From positions 124,001 to 188,000 of the forward strand of contig NJIE01000023.1 in NCBI GenBank assembly GCA_002213445.1: a stretch of 64,000 nucleotides of DNA, in the 5' to 3' direction. Within the stretch, counting starts at the first letter, position 1; every line of letters starts with the position of its first letter. Positions 53,684 through 62,539 of the stretch are shown here, piece after piece. Position numbers and translations under genes: made by a program. Source of the DNA: Xenophilus sp. AP218F (lineage in GTDB: Bacteria; Pseudomonadota; Gammaproteobacteria; Burkholderiales; Chromobacteriaceae). Under the pieces are notes generated by a model that was not told the DNA's origin, searched no databases, and was given only the letters and a program-made list of their open reading frames with translations.

Positions 53684-54202
53684 TTACTGATAAGTCATCG
53701 AGTACTGCACGCTGGTATTCACCGCGCCGGCGCCGGCCGCGCCGCCGGTGGCGATGTACTGCGCGTAGTAGTTCAGCGTCGCCGCGCCGGAGCTGATCGG
53801 GGCCACCTGCGAGTTGGCGTTGTTGGTCAGATTGATCGCCTGCAGGGCGTTGTTGAGCAGCTGCACTTCCACGTTGGTGGCCGCGCCGGCGTTCTTCAGG
53901 TTGCCGGTGGCGGCGTCCACGGTCGGCCCGATTTCGAAGTGGGTCACTGCGTTTTTCAGCGTGGCGGGGCAATTGCTCAGATTGATGCTGAACGGGGTAG
54001 AGCCAGCGGTCTGACCAGCGGTGGCAAGCGAAGACACGCCGACGGTGGGCAGGGTGACGGTAAAGCTGGCCCCCCCGGTGCTGTTGATGGTGCAGGTGTT
54101 GGCGACGATGTTGCCATTGATGGTGATGGTGCCGTCGGCAGCCTGCGCGCCGGCCGCGTAAAGACCCAGGCCGACGGCCAGTACGGTAACAAGCTTCTTC
54201 AT
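53684..54202 (-). CDS. Major pilin of the chaperone-usher pilus
   Basis: 172 residues, type-1 pilin family. The signal peptide is MKKLVTVLAVGLGLYAAGAQA. DGTITINGNIVANTCTI and LSNCPATLKN provide the disulfide, PTVGVSSLATAGQTAGSTPF follows and the end VQYSMTYQ is the donor-strand tail. It is the first gene of the operon, with the strongest expected expression. Upstream DNA is AT-rich. Confidence 0.92.
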   Translation of the reverse strand: MKKLVTVLAVGLGLYAAGAQAADGTITINGNIVANTCTINSTGGASFTVTLPTVGVSSLATAGQTAGSTPFSINLSNCPATLKNAVTHFEIGPTVDAATGNLKNAGAATNVEVQLLNNALQAINLTNNANSQVAPISSGAATLNYYAQYIATGGAAGAGAVNTSVQYSMTYQ

Positions 54203-55149: not shown

Positions 55150-56733
55150 ATGAAGAAAAACCTGCCGGTTACCGGCGTCGAGCAGCCGTTCGAGCGCGGC
55201 ATGATCGTCTCGCGCACCGACCTCAAAGGTTGCATCACCCACGTCAACGACGCCTTCGTCGCCATCTCCGGCTTCAGCCGCGAGGAGTTGCTGGGCAAGA
55301 ACCACAACATCGTCCGCCATCCGGACATGCCGCCCATCCTGTTCGAAGATCTGTGGCAGACGATGAAGCGCGAGCGTCCCTGGCGCGGGCTGGTGAAGAA
55401 CCGCTGCAAGAACGGCGACCATTACTGGGTGGACGCGCTGGTGGTGCCGGTGCGTGAAAACGGCGTCGCCACCGGCTACATGTCGGTGCGCAGCCCGGCC
55501 AGCCGGGAGGCGGTGCGCCAGGCGGAACAGCGCTACCCGCAGCTGCTGCGGGGCGCGCGCTTCAAGCCGCCGCGCGGCAGCGGCGTGCGCGAAGGCCGGG
55601 TGCGGGCGCTGGCCGGCGCGGCGCTGATCGCCCTCTCCAGCGTCGAGGCGGTGGCCAACCAGAGCCCGGCCGGCCTGCTGTGCGGCGCGCTGGCGGCGGC
55701 CACCGTCGCCGGCTGGCTGGGCTTCGAGCGCTGGCGCGGCCGCCGCCAGGATGCGTTGCTGCAAGTCTGCGAGCGCATCGCCGAAGGCCATCTGGACAAC
55801 GAGCTATCCATCCGCGGCGCGGGCGAAGCCGGCCGGCTGGAGAGCACGCTGGCGCATATGCAGGTGCATCTCAAAGTCATCATCGACGAATTGCAGATGA
55901 CCTCGCGCCAGCTGGACCGCGACGCCGGCCACCTGCAGGGTTCGATCGCCGGCATCTACCAGCGCATGGCCGCCAGCGCCGACAATATGGAAAGAATGAG
56001 CGCCGCCATCCAGCAGCTATCGGCCTCCATCGAGCAGGTGGCGCAAAACGCCGGCAACACTTCGGCGATCAGCCAGGACGCCTCGCTCACCATCGAGGCC
56101 AGCAGCCAGGAAATGGAGCGCGCCCGCGCGCTGAGCCAGGCCGCCGGCCAGACTGTGGCCACGGCGCAGGACACCATCGCCTCGCTCTCCAGCGCCATCG
56201 CCAACGTCGGACTGGTGACGCAAACCATTCACGACATCGCCGAGCAAACCAATCTGCTGGCGCTCAACGCCGCCATCGAGGCCGCCCGCGCCGGCGAAAG
56301 CGGCCGCGGCTTCGCCGTGGTGGCCGACGAAGTGCGCAAGCTGGCCGAGCGCACCAGCGACAGCACCGACGAAATCAACGCGCTGGTGGCCAATATCGGC
56401 AAGGCCTCGCAGGAAACGGTCAACGCCATGAACCGCGTCAACAGCGAAACCCGCGCCGGCAGCGAGGTGCAGCAAAACGCCGCCGACAGCCTGGCCCGCA
56501 TCCGCGAATCCTCCGCCCAGGTCAGCCGGATGATGCGGGAAATCGCCGGCACCAACGCCGAGCAATCCGCCGCCGCCCAGCACCTGGCCGAGCGCATGGA
56601 GAACATCGCCGAGCAATTCGAAGAAACCCATCGCCACCTGGAAGACGCCAACGCCAGCGTGGCCGGCTTTGGCGGCAGCGCCCGCCGGCTGGCCGGCATG
56701 GCGGCGCATTTCAAGCTGGACGCCACCGCCTGA
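55150..56733 (+). CDS. Aer-like PAS-domain methyl-accepting chemotaxis protein
   Basis: 527 residues. The N-terminal PAS domain (about 10-125) contains [43 protein letters not shown] (split over the family's helices), very like E. coli Aer, which senses redox state through FAD. Hydrophobic segments lie at about 155-195. A HAMP-like linker follows, then the signalling domain with the hairpin tip [40 protein letters not shown]. There is no C-terminal CheR/B pentapeptide. A terminator follows. Confidence 0.9.
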
Positions 56734-56872: not shown

Positions 56873-58525
56873 GTGACCAATCTGCTTGCGCAATTCAGCA
56901 TCAAGGCCAAAATCCTGGGCCTGATTCTTCTTTCTGCCCTCGTGGCGCTGATCATCGGCCTCAACGGCATCTCCGGCAGCGGCAGCATGAACCAGTTGAC
57001 CCGCGACATGCACGACAACCAGCTGATGCCGGTGTACTGGGTGGCGGTGGCCAATCAGAATGCCATCTATGTCAGCCGTTCCGACTACCGCTTCATCGCC
57101 GAAACCGAAAAATCGCAAATGGACGCCGTTATGGTCAGCCGGCAGAAATTTCTCGCCGAAATGAACCGTCTGCTGGACCTGTACCGCAAGACCGATCTCA
57201 CGCCGCCGGAAGTGGACGCGCTCAAGCGCTTCGACGCCGCCTGGCCGGTGATGGAGGAGGCCTGCAAGCGCGTGCGCGACCTGAGCTACACCGACACCGG
57301 CAACGGCGAAAACAACAAGAAGGCGCTGGCGCTGATGGCCAAGGAATGCCGCCCCAAATTCCAGACGGTGGACGACATCATGAGCGAGATCGTCGAGATC
57401 AACGTCAAGCTGGCGCACCAGGCGTTGCAGGACTCCGAAAACAAATACGCCAGCCTGCGCAATACCGCCATCGCGGTGCTGGCGGTGGGCGTGGTGTTGC
57501 TGCTGATTCTCGGGCTGGCCATCCAGCAAGGCATCGTCGGCAGCCTGAAAAACGCCAGCCAAGCCCTGGCCCGCATCGGCCGCGGCGACTTGTCCGGCGA
57601 GATCCGTCCGGTGGGCAAGGACGAAGTGGCCGGCATGATGCAATCGCTGGCCGACACCCAGACGCAACTGCGCCAGACCGTCGGCGAAATCATCAAGGCC
57701 GCCGCCAACGTGGCCGCCACCTCCGAAGAGCTGGCAGCCTCCACCGAGCAGGTCAGCGCCAGCATCGGCCATCAGGTCAACGCCACCTCCAGCGCCGCCG
57801 CCTCCATCGAGGAGTTGACGGTGAGCATAGACCAGTGCTCCAGCAACGCCACCAAGGCCGATGGCCAGGCCAGCGAGGCCGGCCAGCAGGCCAAGGCCGG
57901 CAATCGCGAGGTGCAGGAATCCACCACCCAGGTGAAAAAGGTGAACGACAGCGTCACCCGCTCCGCCGACAATCTGGAAGCGCTGTCCGATCAAGCGCAG
58001 CAGATCAGCAGCATCGCCACCGTGATCAAGGATGTGGCCGACCAGACCAATCTGCTGGCGCTGAACGCGGCCATCGAAGCCGCCCGCGCCGGCGAACAGG
58101 GCCGCGGCTTCGCCGTGGTGGCGGACGAGGTGCGCAAGCTGGCCGAACGCACCACTGTTTCCGCCACGGAAATCACCCAGATGATAGGCAAGATCCAGGA
58201 CGGCGCGCACGAGGCGGTGGAAAGCATGCGCAGCAGCCGCCAGATCGTGGCAGAAGTGGTGGTGTCGGCGGAGAGCGCCTCGGCCACCATCAGCACCGTC
58301 GAGCAACGCGCGGACGAGGTGGTGGACGCCATCGGCGAAATCGCCTCGGCCATGCAGGAACAGCGCCAGGCCAGCACCGAGCTGGCCAGCCGGGTGGAAG
58401 TCATCGCCCAGATGACCAAGGAAAACGGCATCGCCGTGGACGTGTTCTCCCAGGCCACCCGCGAACTGGCGCTGGTGGCGGAAAAACTGCAGCAAACCAC
58501 CCAGGTGTTCAAACTGGAAGGCTGA
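56873..58525 (+). CDS. Methyl-accepting chemotaxis protein with four-helix-bundle sensor
   Basis: 550 residues. Membrane helix 1 is [21 protein letters not shown]; a periplasmic four-helix bundle of about 150 residues contains [37 protein letters not shown]. Membrane helix 2 is [22 protein letters not shown] and the signalling domain ([39 protein letters not shown]) follow. The start is GTG at 56873 with GGGGG upstream. The ligand is unknown. Adjacent to another chemoreceptor, but separated by a terminator. Confidence 0.9.
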
Positions 58526-58542: not shown

Positions 58543-58575
58543 AAAAAACCCGAAGCCGTTCGGCTTCGGGTTTTT
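58543..58575. terminator. Terminator after the chemoreceptor gene
   Basis: AAAAACCCGAAGCCG and its complement (to 58575) with a short loop and T-run. It directly precedes the left island attachment repeat. Confidence 0.9.
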
Positions 58576-58576
58576 G

Positions 58577-58623
58577 TTTGGTTGCGGGGGCAGGATTCGA
58601 ACCTACGACCTTCGGGTTATGAG
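58577..58623 (-). repeat. Left attachment repeat (3' part of tRNA-fMet)
   Basis: 47 bases identical to 62461-62507, covering the CCA end, T-arm, variable loop and anticodon arm of the initiator tRNA on the minus strand. After 58623 the match stops, so this is a tRNA fragment, not a gene. It marks one end of an integrated island. Confidence 0.92.
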
Positions 58624-58749
58624 TCCGGGAAACCATTGGATGAATCGGCGGGGTTAGACGTAGACAAACGAGACAACTTATTGTTTTAAAAGACAAAAGT
58701 TGAAATCATCTCGTTGACAGGCAGGTACCTGCATGGATGCAGTTCCAAG

Positions 58750-58774
58750 CAATCCGCTTACAAGCTGGTTACAC
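58750..58774 (+). repeat. Island-end 25-bp element, left copy
   Basis: AATCCGCTTACA-agct-GGTTACACG. The copy at 62382-62406 shares all 21 bases outside the 4-base centre. Inside each copy the motif G(C/G)TTACA is repeated. Position 127 bases inside the left attachment repeat suggests an integrase arm-binding site. Confidence 0.6.
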
Positions 58775-58803
58775 GCCATCTTTAGACCCCGAGATAACAA
58801 CAC

Positions 58804-58851
58804 ATGGCAAAGATTAACTTCACCTCTTCCCGTATTGACTCCTTCAAGTGC
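58804..58851 (+). pseudogene. 5' remnant of a tyrosine-type integrase gene
   Basis: The 16 codons MAKINFTSSRIDSFKC match the usual opening of integrases from tRNA-linked islands (MAKINxTxxRIxxFKC). The gene then loses similarity. It starts 180 bases inside the left attachment repeat and reads inward, the normal place for an integrase. In a second frame right after the break, IFDELWNAIN-stop and a 10-bp hairpin (58906-58929) look like the tail of another lost gene. The catalytic domain is absent. Confidence 0.6.
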
Positions 58852-58905
58852 CGCCGATCTTCGATGAGTTGTGGAACGCCATCAACTGAGTGCGTTCCCT
58901 TAACG

Positions 58906-58929
58906 CCAAGGAAGCTCCGGCTTCCTTGG
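58906..58929 (+). terminator. Hairpin between the integrase remnant and the thioesterase gene
   Basis: CCAAGGAAGC-tccg-GCTTCCTTGG, perfect 10-bp stem without T-run. It lies just after a short frame ending in a stop (58882), so it may be the terminator of a deleted gene, or part of the cassette's leader. Confidence 0.45.
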
Positions 58930-58953
58930 CTCCCTGAAAATACGGATTTCGCC

Positions 58954-59721
58954 ATGCATTGCACCCACTTCCCCAGCGCCCCCCGCAGCTTGAAACATCT
59001 CACGCCGAGACGCCAGGGCAGCCTGCGGCTGATTGCTTTTCCTCACGCCGGAGCCGGAGCCACTGCCTTTCAGGGTTGGGGCCCCGCGTTGCATCAAGAC
59101 ATCGAACTCTATGCCGTGCAATACCCCGGTCGAGAAGAGCGGGCGCACGAAGCGCCGCTCTGCCAACCCCAATCGCTCATCAATCAACTGATGCCGGCAC
59201 TGCAGCCACTGCAGGATAAGCCGCTGATCTTTTTCGGCCATAGCCTTGGCGGACGGGTTGCGCTGGCGTTAGCGATGGCGCTGCCTCAACCGCCGCTACA
59301 ATTGATCATTTCTGCCAGTTCATCGCCCTTTCTGGCGCGCCACAGTCGGTTGCTGAGAATGCCGCCTGCCGCTTTGTTGAATGCGCTATGTGCCGGCGAG
59401 GGCCTGGATGAGTGGCTCATCGGCGACAGCGCGCTGCTCGATTACTATCTGCCGCTGATTCGTGCCGATCTGATGCTGTCCAGCCAATTGCTTTTCCCTG
59501 CGCAACCGGGTTACCACGCCCCGCTGGCGATGTTTTATGGCGAAAACGACGAGTTGATCGATCGGCAGGATTTGCTCGACTGGCGCCGGATCGCGCAAGG
59601 CAATTTTCAGCAGCGCACTTTTGCCGGCGGACATATGTATATCACCACGCAGCGCGACGCCGTGATAGCCGGAATTTACCAGTTGCTGGCAGGCCACCTG
59701 AGTGAACCGGCCAGCCGGTAG
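58954..59721 (+). CDS. Type II thioesterase of NRPS/PKS type
   Basis: 255 residues, alpha/beta hydrolase. RLIAFPHAGAGATAFQGW is the type II thioesterase opening, the nucleophile Ser is in FFGHSLGGRVALAL and the catalytic His in FAGGHMYIT. Such enzymes free mis-primed carrier proteins of non-ribosomal or polyketide synthases. No synthase is in the window, so this copy is orphaned. An in-frame upstream extension to 58804 comes from the integrase remnant. It is convergent with the MFS gene (3 bases between stops). GC is lower than in flanking genes. Confidence 0.85.
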   Translation: MHCTHFPSAPRSLKHLTPRRQGSLRLIAFPHAGAGATAFQGWGPALHQDIELYAVQYPGREERAHEAPLCQPQSLINQLMPALQPLQDKPLIFFGHSLGGRVALALAMALPQPPLQLIISASSSPFLARHSRLLRMPPAALLNALCAGEGLDEWLIGDSALLDYYLPLIRADLMLSSQLLFPAQPGYHAPLAMFYGENDELIDRQDLLDWRRIAQGNFQQRTFAGGHMYITTQRDAVIAGIYQLLAGHLSEPASR

Positions 59722-59724
59722 CAC

Positions 59725-60888
59725 TCAGGCGTTTTCACTCTCAGGCAATGCCAAACGACGCTCCTTGTGTACCACCCGCCACGCCAACAGCAGCACGCAG
59801 AGGCTGCAGAGCGACAGCACGGCGCCCAGGTGCTGCGACAGCCCCGCCAGCACCAAGCCACCGCCGAGCATCAGGTAATACATCAGGCCAAGGATGGCGC
59901 CAGCGGTACCCATGCAGTCTTTATAATGGCGCAGCGCGCGCGCCAGAATATTGGGAATGGCGATACCGTACGCCATCACCACCAGCATCATCGGTAGAAC
60001 AAACCACAAGGTCCCTTCTAGCAGTAGTACCAGCAGGCCACCGGTCAGCGACAAGCCGCAGGCCAACATCAGCAACGCAGGGAACAGCCAGTGTTTGCCG
60101 ATCAAAAATTTGTTGATCGCCGCGCCGATACCGACCCCGGCCGCCAACACCAAACCGGTATAACCGAACCACTGCGCCGGCAGTGCCAACGCCGAGAGGT
60201 GGAATGGCGCCAGCTGGTAATAGCTGAACATGCAAATATTGAACAACGCCACCAACAGCGCACTGAACCAAATATCCCCGTCCTTGATCATCCGTCCCAG
60301 CGTGCCGAATAATGAATTCTTCACCACCTGTTGCGGACGCGTCTCCGGCAGTTGCCAACCGGCATAGCCCAGCAACAGCGCCGCCAACAGCGCCAAACCG
60401 CCAAACACCCCCTGATAGCCCCAATAATGAGTCAGCACTGTGCCGCTCAACACGCCAACCGCCGGGCTGATCGCCATGGCGATCCCCATTACCGAGAACA
60501 CCCGCGCCAACTCATAACCGTCGAAGCGATCGCGAATCGCCGTTTGAGTTCCTACCGAGCCGACCGCTGCGCCAAAGGCGGCCAGCACCCGCGCAACTAA
60601 CAGCATGCTGAAGCTGCAGCTGAACAGTGCGGCAATCGAAGCCAGCAGATAGAGCGCTAGCCCGGACAAGATGGTAGGACGGCGTCCGATGACGTCGCAC
60701 ATTCGTCCCCATACCACCACGCCCAGTGCAAACGCGAAAAAGTAACAAGAGAGCGTTTGCGCCGCCATTTCCGAGCTCACCCGAAAACCGTCCGCAATGT
60801 GTGTCAGCGCCGGGCTGTATATAGTCTCCACCACTTGGGGAAACATCATCATCGACGTTGCTAATGACAGAGTCAGTTTACGTTGCAT
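59725..60888 (-). CDS. MFS drug-resistance transporter, Bcr/CflA type
   Basis: 387 residues with 12 membrane helices. SLATSMMMFPQVVETIYSPALTHIADGFRVS and the loop VVWGRMCDVIGRRPTILSGL (motif A) are Bcr/CflA features; RVLAAFGAAVGSVGTQTAIRDRF follows (motif C region GIAMAISPAVGVLSGTVL). It probably exports a drug or small metabolite by H+ antiport. The ATG at 60888 is preferred to the upstream ATG. Divergent from the araC-type gene, which likely controls it. Confidence 0.87.
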   Translation of the reverse strand: MQRKLTLSLATSMMMFPQVVETIYSPALTHIADGFRVSSEMAAQTLSCYFFAFALGVVVWGRMCDVIGRRPTILSGLALYLLASIAALFSCSFSMLLVARVLAAFGAAVGSVGTQTAIRDRFDGYELARVFSVMGIAMAISPAVGVLSGTVLTHYWGYQGVFGGLALLAALLLGYAGWQLPETRPQQVVKNSLFGTLGRMIKDGDIWFSALLVALFNICMFSYYQLAPFHLSALALPAQWFGYTGLVLAAGVGIGAAINKFLIGKHWLFPALLMLACGLSLTGGLLVLLLEGTLWFVLPMMLVVMAYGIAIPNILARALRHYKDCMGTAGAILGLMYYLMLGGGLVLAGLSQHLGAVLSLCSLCVLLLAWRVVHKERRLALPESENA

Positions 60889-60988
60889 ATCAGATCCTGT
60901 AGCTAAAATTAAGCTGCACAAGGTAGCATCTTCTCCCTTGCGACGATTACAATATAAAAGACAATAAATTTACAAAATCGGACATGTG
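60889..60988. promoter_or_regulatory. AT-rich divergent promoter of the MFS and AraC-type genes
   Basis: 100 bases, notably AT-rich (ACAATATAAAAGACAATAAATTTACAAAAT), in contrast to the host. It separates two divergent starts and is the obvious place for the AraC-type protein to act. No clear direct repeats are seen. Confidence 0.5.
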
Positions 60989-61804
60989 ATGGCGTGGCTT
61001 CAGGCTCAGGACAGTTTTAATCCGGAGGCGCTCGACAATAGCGTTCTGGGGATTGCTGCAGAGTTGGCACAACACGACTCGGGATTACACTGGCATGACA
61101 TGGGCCAGTTACTGTTCTGCCAGCGAGGCAGCATGCGCATCACGCTCAATCAAAGCATTTGCATGCTGCCGCCAGCAAGGATTGCCTGGATCCCACCGCG
61201 TGTAGCACACCGCGTTCAGGTCAACGCAGTGGTCGGCTACCGTTCTCTCTATCTCGACGCCGATCGCTATCCCTGCTTGCCAGAGCAGCTTGCCGTACTG
61301 ACGGCCTCACCGCTGCTGCGCGCGGTGCTGGAACGTATCGCCATGGCTGAATTCGATACTGATTGGCGACATGGGCCTTACGCCAATATTCTGGCGGTCT
61401 TCCTGGACGAGATTGCTACTGCACCGCGTGAATTGACTTTGCTGCCGCTTCCCAGCGACCGGCGTCTGCGTCACTTGGCCGAATTGGACATGCTTCCCAC
61501 ACTGCACCAGTTGTCGCGCTATAGCGGCGCATCCGAGAAAACCATCAGCCGGATTTTCCGACGTGAAACCGGTCTCAGTTATCAGCAGTGGCGTCAGCAA
61601 TGGCGGCTGATCAAAGCTATAGAGATGCTGGCCGAGGGGCTGAGTCAATCCGAAGTCGCCTGCCGGCTGGCGTTCTCCAGCGACAGCGCCTTCGCCACTT
61701 TTTTCAAGAACATGGTGGGGTGCCCGCCCAGGGCGTATCTGGAAAAGCAGCGGAGAGATGCTGCCCGAGCTGGATCTGGGTCTGTGGCTGATCAAAGCGG
61801 ATGA
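60989..61804 (+). CDS. AraC-family transcriptional regulator with a fused foreign tail
   Basis: 271 residues. An N-terminal cupin-like sensor (HWHDMGQLLFCQRGSMRITLNQSICMLPPARIAWIPPRVAHRV, split by turns) resembles AraC/XylS regulators of MFS pumps. The C-terminal DNA-binding domain has LHQLSRYSGASEKTISRIFRRETGLSYQQWRQQWRL and VACRLAFSSDSAFATFFKNMVGCPPRAYL. The natural end is near YLEKQR (about 61750). The last 17 or so residues (DAARAGSGSVADQSG) come from out-of-frame reading of the GTPase remnant. ATG at 60989 follows a GTG one codon earlier. Confidence 0.86.
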   Translation: MAWLQAQDSFNPEALDNSVLGIAAELAQHDSGLHWHDMGQLLFCQRGSMRITLNQSICMLPPARIAWIPPRVAHRVQVNAVVGYRSLYLDADRYPCLPEQLAVLTASPLLRAVLERIAMAEFDTDWRHGPYANILAVFLDEIATAPRELTLLPLPSDRRLRHLAELDMLPTLHQLSRYSGASEKTISRIFRRETGLSYQQWRQQWRLIKAIEMLAEGLSQSEVACRLAFSSDSAFATFFKNMVGCPPRAYLEKQRRDAARAGSGSVADQSG

Positions 61805-62282
61805 TCGCGCGCTGAGCGTGGACGAGCAGTGCTATCAGCGCCTGATCCTGCCCTATCTGATCGAACACGATATTCCGCTGCTGTTCGTGGTGAATCAGGT
61901 AGACAAGATCGAGCCCTGCCGGGAATGGGACTTCAGCCGCAGCATGCCCGGTCCACAGCAGCTGACCAACATCAGTCGCAAGCAGTTCCAGGTCAGCCAG
62001 CTGTTCAACGTGCCATTGACCCAGATCTTCGTCACTTCTGCCGCGGAGGGCTACGGCCTGCAGATCCTGATCGAGCAAATCATCCATAGGCTGCCCAAAG
62101 AAAAAAAGTGGAGCGTCACGCGGGAAACCCGCGCCGAGTACGTGATGCCTTCCATGCAGCGGGAATCCATTGCGGGACTGTGGGACACGATCAAGACAGC
62201 CGCCAAGACGATCTTGCGCGAAACCTGGACCACGATCTCCAGCAGAGTGGAGAACTGGTTCAGCAAACTGTTCGGCTGGTAG
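61753..62282 (+). pseudogene. Truncated island-type GTPase (YkfA/YeeP-like), C-terminal part
   Basis: About 174 residues remain. LPELDLGLWLIKADDRALSVDEQCYQRLI and the G4 motif LFVVNQVDKIEPCREWDFS are typical of the GTPases carried on prophage-like islands (YkfA/YeeP), with a C-terminal helical part. G1 (GxxxxGKS) and G3 (DxxG) are missing because the cassette replaces the 5' end. Homology begins about 61753, where the AraC gene ends. An ATG at 61758 could still start a peptide, but GTP binding is lost. Confidence 0.75.
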
Positions 62283-62381: not shown

Positions 62382-62406
62382 AATCCGCTTACACCGCGGT
62401 TACACG
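62382..62406 (+). repeat. Island-end 25-bp element, right copy
   Basis: AATCCGCTTACA-ccgc-GGTTACACG, 55 bases inside the right attachment repeat, same orientation as the left copy. See 58750-58774. Confidence 0.6.
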
Positions 62407-62443: not shown

Positions 62444-62460
62444 CCTAAGTGCTTGCTTTA

Positions 62461-62539
<79 letters not shown>

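Follow-up and report, generated by a model that had tools for sequence, protein, structure and literature searches.

Probable capture of a Serratia-type thioesterase, efflux pump and regulator fragment by a decayed tRNA-Met island in Xenophilus sp. AP218F

Background

In Escherichia coli, the regulator NimR is reported to activate the major facilitator superfamily (MFS) pump NimT (PMC7355843). The althiomycin cluster alb1-6 of Serratia marcescens Db10 is described in PMC3445576 with an AurF-like enzyme, a type II thioesterase (TE), an MFS protein and two large synthetases of 2376 and 5347 amino acids (aa). In homology-facilitated illegitimate recombination (HFIR), the insertion of DNA depends on homology that anchors one of its sides and is coupled with a deletion; as given in PMC3240628, three of four clones had no homology at the new junction and the deletions average about 1 kb. 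These are among the closest described counterparts of a block of about 2.9 kb in Xenophilus sp. AP218F that encodes a TE, an MFS exporter and an AraC-family regulator. The block lies in a stretch of 64,000 nucleotides (nt), the window, which corresponds to positions 124001-188000 of contig NJIE01000023.1 in GCA_002213445.1, an assembly of 3.98 Mb in 42 contigs. All coordinates below without a locus name are those of the window.

Taking its origin, its borders and its status as an orphan fragment together, we conclude that the block is very probably a horizontally acquired fragment of Serratia type, and we lean towards its having been joined in a single step. It is an unusually clear case, although ordinary in kind, of gene-fragment capture between distant bacteria. 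As an example it is clean: donor-type and recipient-type sequences are both known, and a multi-gene fragment landed without visible homology. It also calls for caution, as blocks of thioesterase, pump and regulator in islands are not necessarily functional cassettes.

We propose that a chromosome fragment from the Serratia marcescens group, spanning the end of a nonribosomal peptide synthetase (NRPS) operon (a dioxygenase tail and the TE) and the adjoining efflux/AraC pair, was joined into a tRNA-Met island by illegitimate recombination, with loss of the island interior. The TE would have been left without operon start and synthetase, as an orphan, and the AraC protein would sense a small molecule and activate the divergent MFS pump through a co-transferred control region.

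Origin of the block

Three uninterrupted open reading frames (ORFs) occupy 58.8-61.8 kb in the ORF list, between the 5' end of an integrase gene and the 3' remainder of a GTPase gene. Domain profiles match the TE, MFS and AraC frames, all of which are intact, in agreement with the original prediction made from the letters of the window. The Serratia-like block runs from 58852 to 61743 (+ strand) by nucleotide alignment to three Serratia loci (L018, L033 and L034), with identities of 90.62, 91.32 and 90.55% over 2,890-2,891 nt. The three loci are mutually 95.26-98.30% identical. We take the source group to be the S. marcescens group, with S. ureilytica as the one named record.

The Serratia loci hold a five-gene co-directional operon that encodes, in order, an AurF-like oxygenase (PF11583), an NRPS, a cyclase (PF04199), a tryptophan 2,3-dioxygenase (PF03301) and, last, the TE. 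This five-gene locus lies at L018:1692-9937 and is also present in L033 and L034. The NRPS has 1916 aa with AMP-binding, condensation and carrier domains, and no thioesterase domain at E <= 1e-5. No match of the locus to a described cluster was found in the literature searched, and its combination of an AurF-like enzyme, an NRPS without a Pfam thioesterase domain, a cyclase and a dioxygenase may merit a study of its own. The althiomycin cluster was rejected as the source of the block since its gene content differs: it has two large synthetases, and the main text of PMC3445576 never uses the word "tryptophan".

The link between block and operon is direct. The first 38 nt of the block (58852-58889, + strand) are the 3' end of the donor dioxygenase gene, 11 codons with the stop, as aligned at the junction with L018, L033 and L034; the dioxygenase match to PF03301 in the donor-type locus is at L018:9200-9937. 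In the Serratia loci beside ushA-AraC-MFS, for example that of NZ_JABXOF010000008.1, the TE, MFS and AraC genes have the same order and orientation as in the window at 90.5-91.3% nucleotide identity, whereas the window is without the four other operon genes except for these 11 codons. An origin from a natural-product cluster, one of the possibilities first raised for the block, is thus borne out, as three Serratia genomes have the trio where an NRPS operon ends and the dioxygenase tail was kept.

The trio is probably not a unit of its own. The gene order ushA-AraC-MFS-dacB occurs in seven Serratia genomes; the five-gene operon sits between MFS and dacB in three of them, and the MFS gene adjoins dacB in the other four. 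In three more distant genomes of the genus, a 17-kb stretch with AraC/MFS contains no other gene of the locus. Across 30 Serratia-genus genomes, the MFS is present at at least 80% identity in ten (18 passed the search threshold, and eight at 44-47% identity were set aside), with AraC beside it in all ten. The TE is found in three of the 30 (E <= 1e-50), so that the searched-for gene trio does co-occur elsewhere, in 3/30, and seven of the ten MFS/AraC carriers are without the TE. Records from Salinivibrio, Providencia and Klebsiella also contain the AraC/MFS pair; their gene annotation, which is incomplete, lists no thioesterase within 3-4 kb of it. We therefore regard the TE and the MFS/AraC pair as two units that are neighbours by chance, with the fragment spanning their border. 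The comparison of Serratia neighbourhoods speaks against a dedicated three-gene cassette, which we reject, and the self-contained three-gene unit of the original prediction is not supported.

The same counts bear on a selected self-resistance or helper module, in which the trio would have been kept as protection from the compound that the Serratia NRPS makes, or from one like it. Such a module would fit the uninterrupted frames, the position beside an NRPS operon in three Serratia genomes and the preserved control region. Pump and regulator are not co-inherited with the synthetase, however, as the carriers without a TE and the records from other genera make plain; a TE that lacks its synthetase also lacks the carrier protein it would clear, and the block edges cut two genes as in random capture. 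We consider this module very unlikely. We give slightly less credence to the trio being a transferable unit for immunity and expulsion, retained because it acts on what the dioxygenase-bearing Serratia NRPS locus produces, with the TE made as a fusion from the integrase start codon.

Junctions and the recipient island

The capture of a Serratia-type fragment is also read from its borders. At the left join the recipient match runs to 58852 and the donor match starts from 58852, with about 1 nt shared; at the right join the donor match ends at 61743 and the recipient resumes at 61754. The left edge cuts within the dioxygenase and leaves its last codons, and the right edge removes the last codons of AraC.

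Local similarity between donor L018 and the recipients L076 and L055 (390-400 nt each) scored 9 at the left join (median 8 and maximum 14 in 200 shuffles) and 12 at the right join (median 9 and maximum 14 in 200 shuffles). Since neither join shows homology above the shuffles, illegitimate joining is most likely. No repeats of at least 16 nt were found at the block edges in a repeat search, and, within this search and an inspection by eye, the edges lack the transposase, inverted repeats and target duplication of a composite transposon or integron. As in HFIR, insertion is coupled with deletion at the block; unlike HFIR, no homologous anchor is seen on either side, and up to tens of kb were possibly lost here, against the average of about 1 kb in PMC3240628. 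Known plasmids or phages are not supported as carriers. The Serratia locus gave no megablast match in plasmids and the block gave none in phages or E. coli genomes; a slower plasmid search returned partial matches only, the best of them, in MFS/AraC, being 65.5% over 16% of the query. Double illegitimate recombination has reportedly been treated by Hulter and Wackernagel (2008).

The recipient is a tRNA-targeted integrative island, with the tRNA 3' end repeated at both borders. An attL-like 55-nt direct repeat of the 3' half of tRNA-Met (58573-58627) is 96% identical to the attR-like copy at 62457-62511, which overlaps the tRNA gene in its 3' half (repeat search and ARAGORN). The island target, an intact tRNA-Met (CAT), was placed by ARAGORN at 62463-62539 (- strand), and the same tRNA stands beside the GTPase in L053-L056. 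Inside both island ends is a 25-nt repeat pair (58751-58775 and 62382-62406, 84% alike), possibly integrase arm sites. Of the island tyrosine integrase there remains a 5' stub of 16 codons (58804-58852, + strand), in a region from attL to stub that is 96% identical to genome G012; with about 16 codons left of its integrase, the island is a remnant, now of just 3.9 kb between repeats. The 3' part of the island GTPase (61754-62282, + strand; about 175 residues) is 95% identical at the aa level to that of G012 and 93% to those of G025 and G028.

Longer, uninterrupted relatives of both truncated genes are present within the same genus. In G012 the same attL-like sequence is followed by an integrase of 445 aa without interruption (PF00589, PF13356). 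Longer GTPases lie by the same tRNA in G012 (PF01926) and G028 (297 aa), and the open frame in G025 has 317 codons. By comparison, the window island has lost the stretch from about integrase codon 16 to GTPase codon 123 in G028 numbering (116 in the G012 frame). These longer relatives confirm that the block replaces the 3' part of an integrase and the 5' part of a GTPase, as originally proposed. The donor and recipient alignments place the breakpoints to about 10 nt. In G028 the repeats are 41.3 kb apart. The G017 site (L082) is without an island and has a single repeat copy, flanked on one side by a homologue of the window chemoreceptor gene at 55150-56636 and on the other by the window's right neighbour. 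The second chemoreceptor gene of the window (56873-58525) has no match at the G017 site beyond a 118-nt patch.

Authenticity and completeness of the insertion

The cognate NRPS was not found anywhere in the assembly. With the Serratia NRPS as query, 14 matches were obtained in the host genome at E <= 1e-3, with a best identity of 31%; none was in the window, as had been stated for the surroundings of the block. Of the other four operon genes, the assembly contains just four short patches of 71-82%, all on a single contig. For the five genes that come next in Serratia it has 71-73% matches, which we read as native homologues, together with one 32-nt patch of 91%. The lack of the neighbouring Serratia genes argues against contamination.

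A chimeric or contaminated assembly, which the draft state in 42 contigs might allow, would require two joins plus the loss of the island interior. The block is on a contig of 206,539 bases, the contamination estimate of the assembly is 0.76%, the rest of the Serratia locus is missing, and the block differs by about 9% from three sequenced Serratia copies. Judged from the assembled sequence alone, a real insertion is much more likely; breakpoints that coincide with an assembly join, which would have undone the original prediction, are improbable, and we place artefact of either kind lowest among the alternatives.

More room is left for a course with the same origin and different steps, in which the island once contained more Serratia DNA, perhaps as much as the entire NRPS locus, and deletions later trimmed this on both sides. 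Such islands are mobile and carry cargo, and the joins are without homology, which deletion ends need not have. Against it, the patches and native homologues listed above are all that the assembly holds of the remaining operon and of the next five genes, and no block match is present in the whole G028 island (L055, L058, L059) or in the examined parts of G012, G025 and G026. We hold this course to be rather unlikely.

Pump and regulator

Within the captured fragment, the MFS/AraC pair probably still works as an inducible pump, by analogy with NimR and its pump. The exporter gene (59725-60921, - strand) is uninterrupted and encodes 398 aa from a TTG start, with an ATG at 60888 (PF07690, E 6.4e-38). 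The product is 95% identical at the aa level to the MFS proteins of the three NRPS-bearing Serratia genomes. Its top NCBIfam model among those listed is TIGR00710 (Bcr/CflA), as the original prediction had it, at 180.2 bits and below the cutoff of 200.9, and for this reason we call the exporter Bcr/CflA-like and do not file it as a member.

The AraC-family regulator (60989-61804, + strand) has a complete helix-turn-helix domain (PF12833, profile positions 1-79 of 80) and a ligand-binding N-terminus (PF02311), and its gene is divergent to the MFS gene. In the junction alignment, the last few donor residues are gone from its 3' end and about 20 residues are read from recipient DNA. Over 243 residues the protein shares 45% identity with a record annotated NimR, whose gene is likewise divergent to an MFS gene; in contrast to the NimR system, the MFS of the block is closest to Bcr/CflA models, a pump of a different type. 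The 40 nt between the divergent genes (60945-60984) are identical at 40/40 positions in the window and seven Serratia loci, which indicates that the pair brought its own control region.

Thioesterase

The TE gene (58954-59721, + strand) is uninterrupted and encodes a stand-alone type II-like thioesterase of 255 aa. PF00975 covers residues 25-240 (E 7e-32) as the stand-alone domain expected of a type II TE, and the translation contains GHSLGG and a C-terminal GGH. The protein is 93-94% identical at the aa level to three Serratia proteins. A scan of genome contigs returned a single relative, from Serratia ureilytica (L018), at 93% identity; two further Serratia-genus genomes complete the three carriers. 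At E <= 1e-40 the TE was found in its own genome only among the 369 genomes of the class sample. Relatives could be missed here, since both the order and the class sample are an even draw from larger groups, with at most six or seven first-look candidates per genome scored among the results listed; the order sample showed the TE in 1 of 394 genomes and missed two of the three Serratia carriers.

Linkage of the TE to an NRPS is seen at the Serratia source and not in the window. The TE is derived from an NRPS-linked type II TE and is now without a known partner. As operon start and synthetase were lost, it is probably an orphan passenger today that is silent or weakly transcribed and has no role.

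Type II TEs are able to act on more than one synthetase, and NRPS-like genes exist in the host, such as a 2912-aa open frame on contig C20. Adoption of the TE by an NRPS enzyme of the host, with improved output, could be imagined on these grounds. The host NRPS genes are unlinked to the TE, however, and although the TE has matches at E <= 1e-20 in 11 genomes of the 61-genome family, all except that of its own genome are at most 34% identical. Such an adoption seems very unlikely to us.

Divergence and selection

When the window is compared with seven close Serratia copies, the ratio of nonsynonymous to synonymous divergence (dN/dS) for MFS is 0.08-0.11, apart from 0.18 with one copy, and that for AraC is 0.08-0.10; for the TE it is 0.17-0.18 against three copies. 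Between close Serratia genomes the values are 0.17-0.22 for TE, 0.07-0.23 for MFS and 0.05-0.17 for AraC. Given this similarity, the window copies show no relaxation and give no proof of present use. In a tree, the window has a long branch and groups with the close Serratia copies; support for its exact placement is weak (68).

Several points weigh against a simple capture from Serratia. No sequenced copy was identified as the donor, the three Serratia copies being about 9% away. Silent divergence (dS) is uneven, at 0.61-0.78 for AraC (60989-61741), 0.22-0.32 for MFS and 0.19-0.21 for TE, and the donor may therefore be a mosaic or more than one event may have occurred. The low dN/dS may predate the transfer. 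About 10 nt at the right join belong to neither match, and no target duplication or inverted repeat is visible by eye at the edges, where shorter signals were not systematically searched. Finally, an ORF of 305 aa (58804-59721) begins at the integrase start codon and continues in frame through the TE, which could therefore be made as a fusion.

Composition and neighbouring features

The block has a GC content of 58.0%, against 64.7% for the window, and is a lower-GC block as first described. The flanking island remnants have even less GC, at 44.6% and 56.6%, so that a low value does not set the block apart. Between the dioxygenase tail and the TE is a stable hairpin with an 11-bp stem (58905-58930, + strand; z = -3.76), which has near-identical sequence in the three Serratia loci.

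In G028, a transposase-like frame, recognized by eye, lies by the attL-like repeat where the integrase would begin (L077:2680-3840). An island gene with DUF932 is found near the GTPase at L053:1994-2974, and a related frame is also present in G028. Elsewhere in the window, a 172-aa ORF at 53684-54202 (- strand) resembles a fimbrial-type subunit, as judged by eye.

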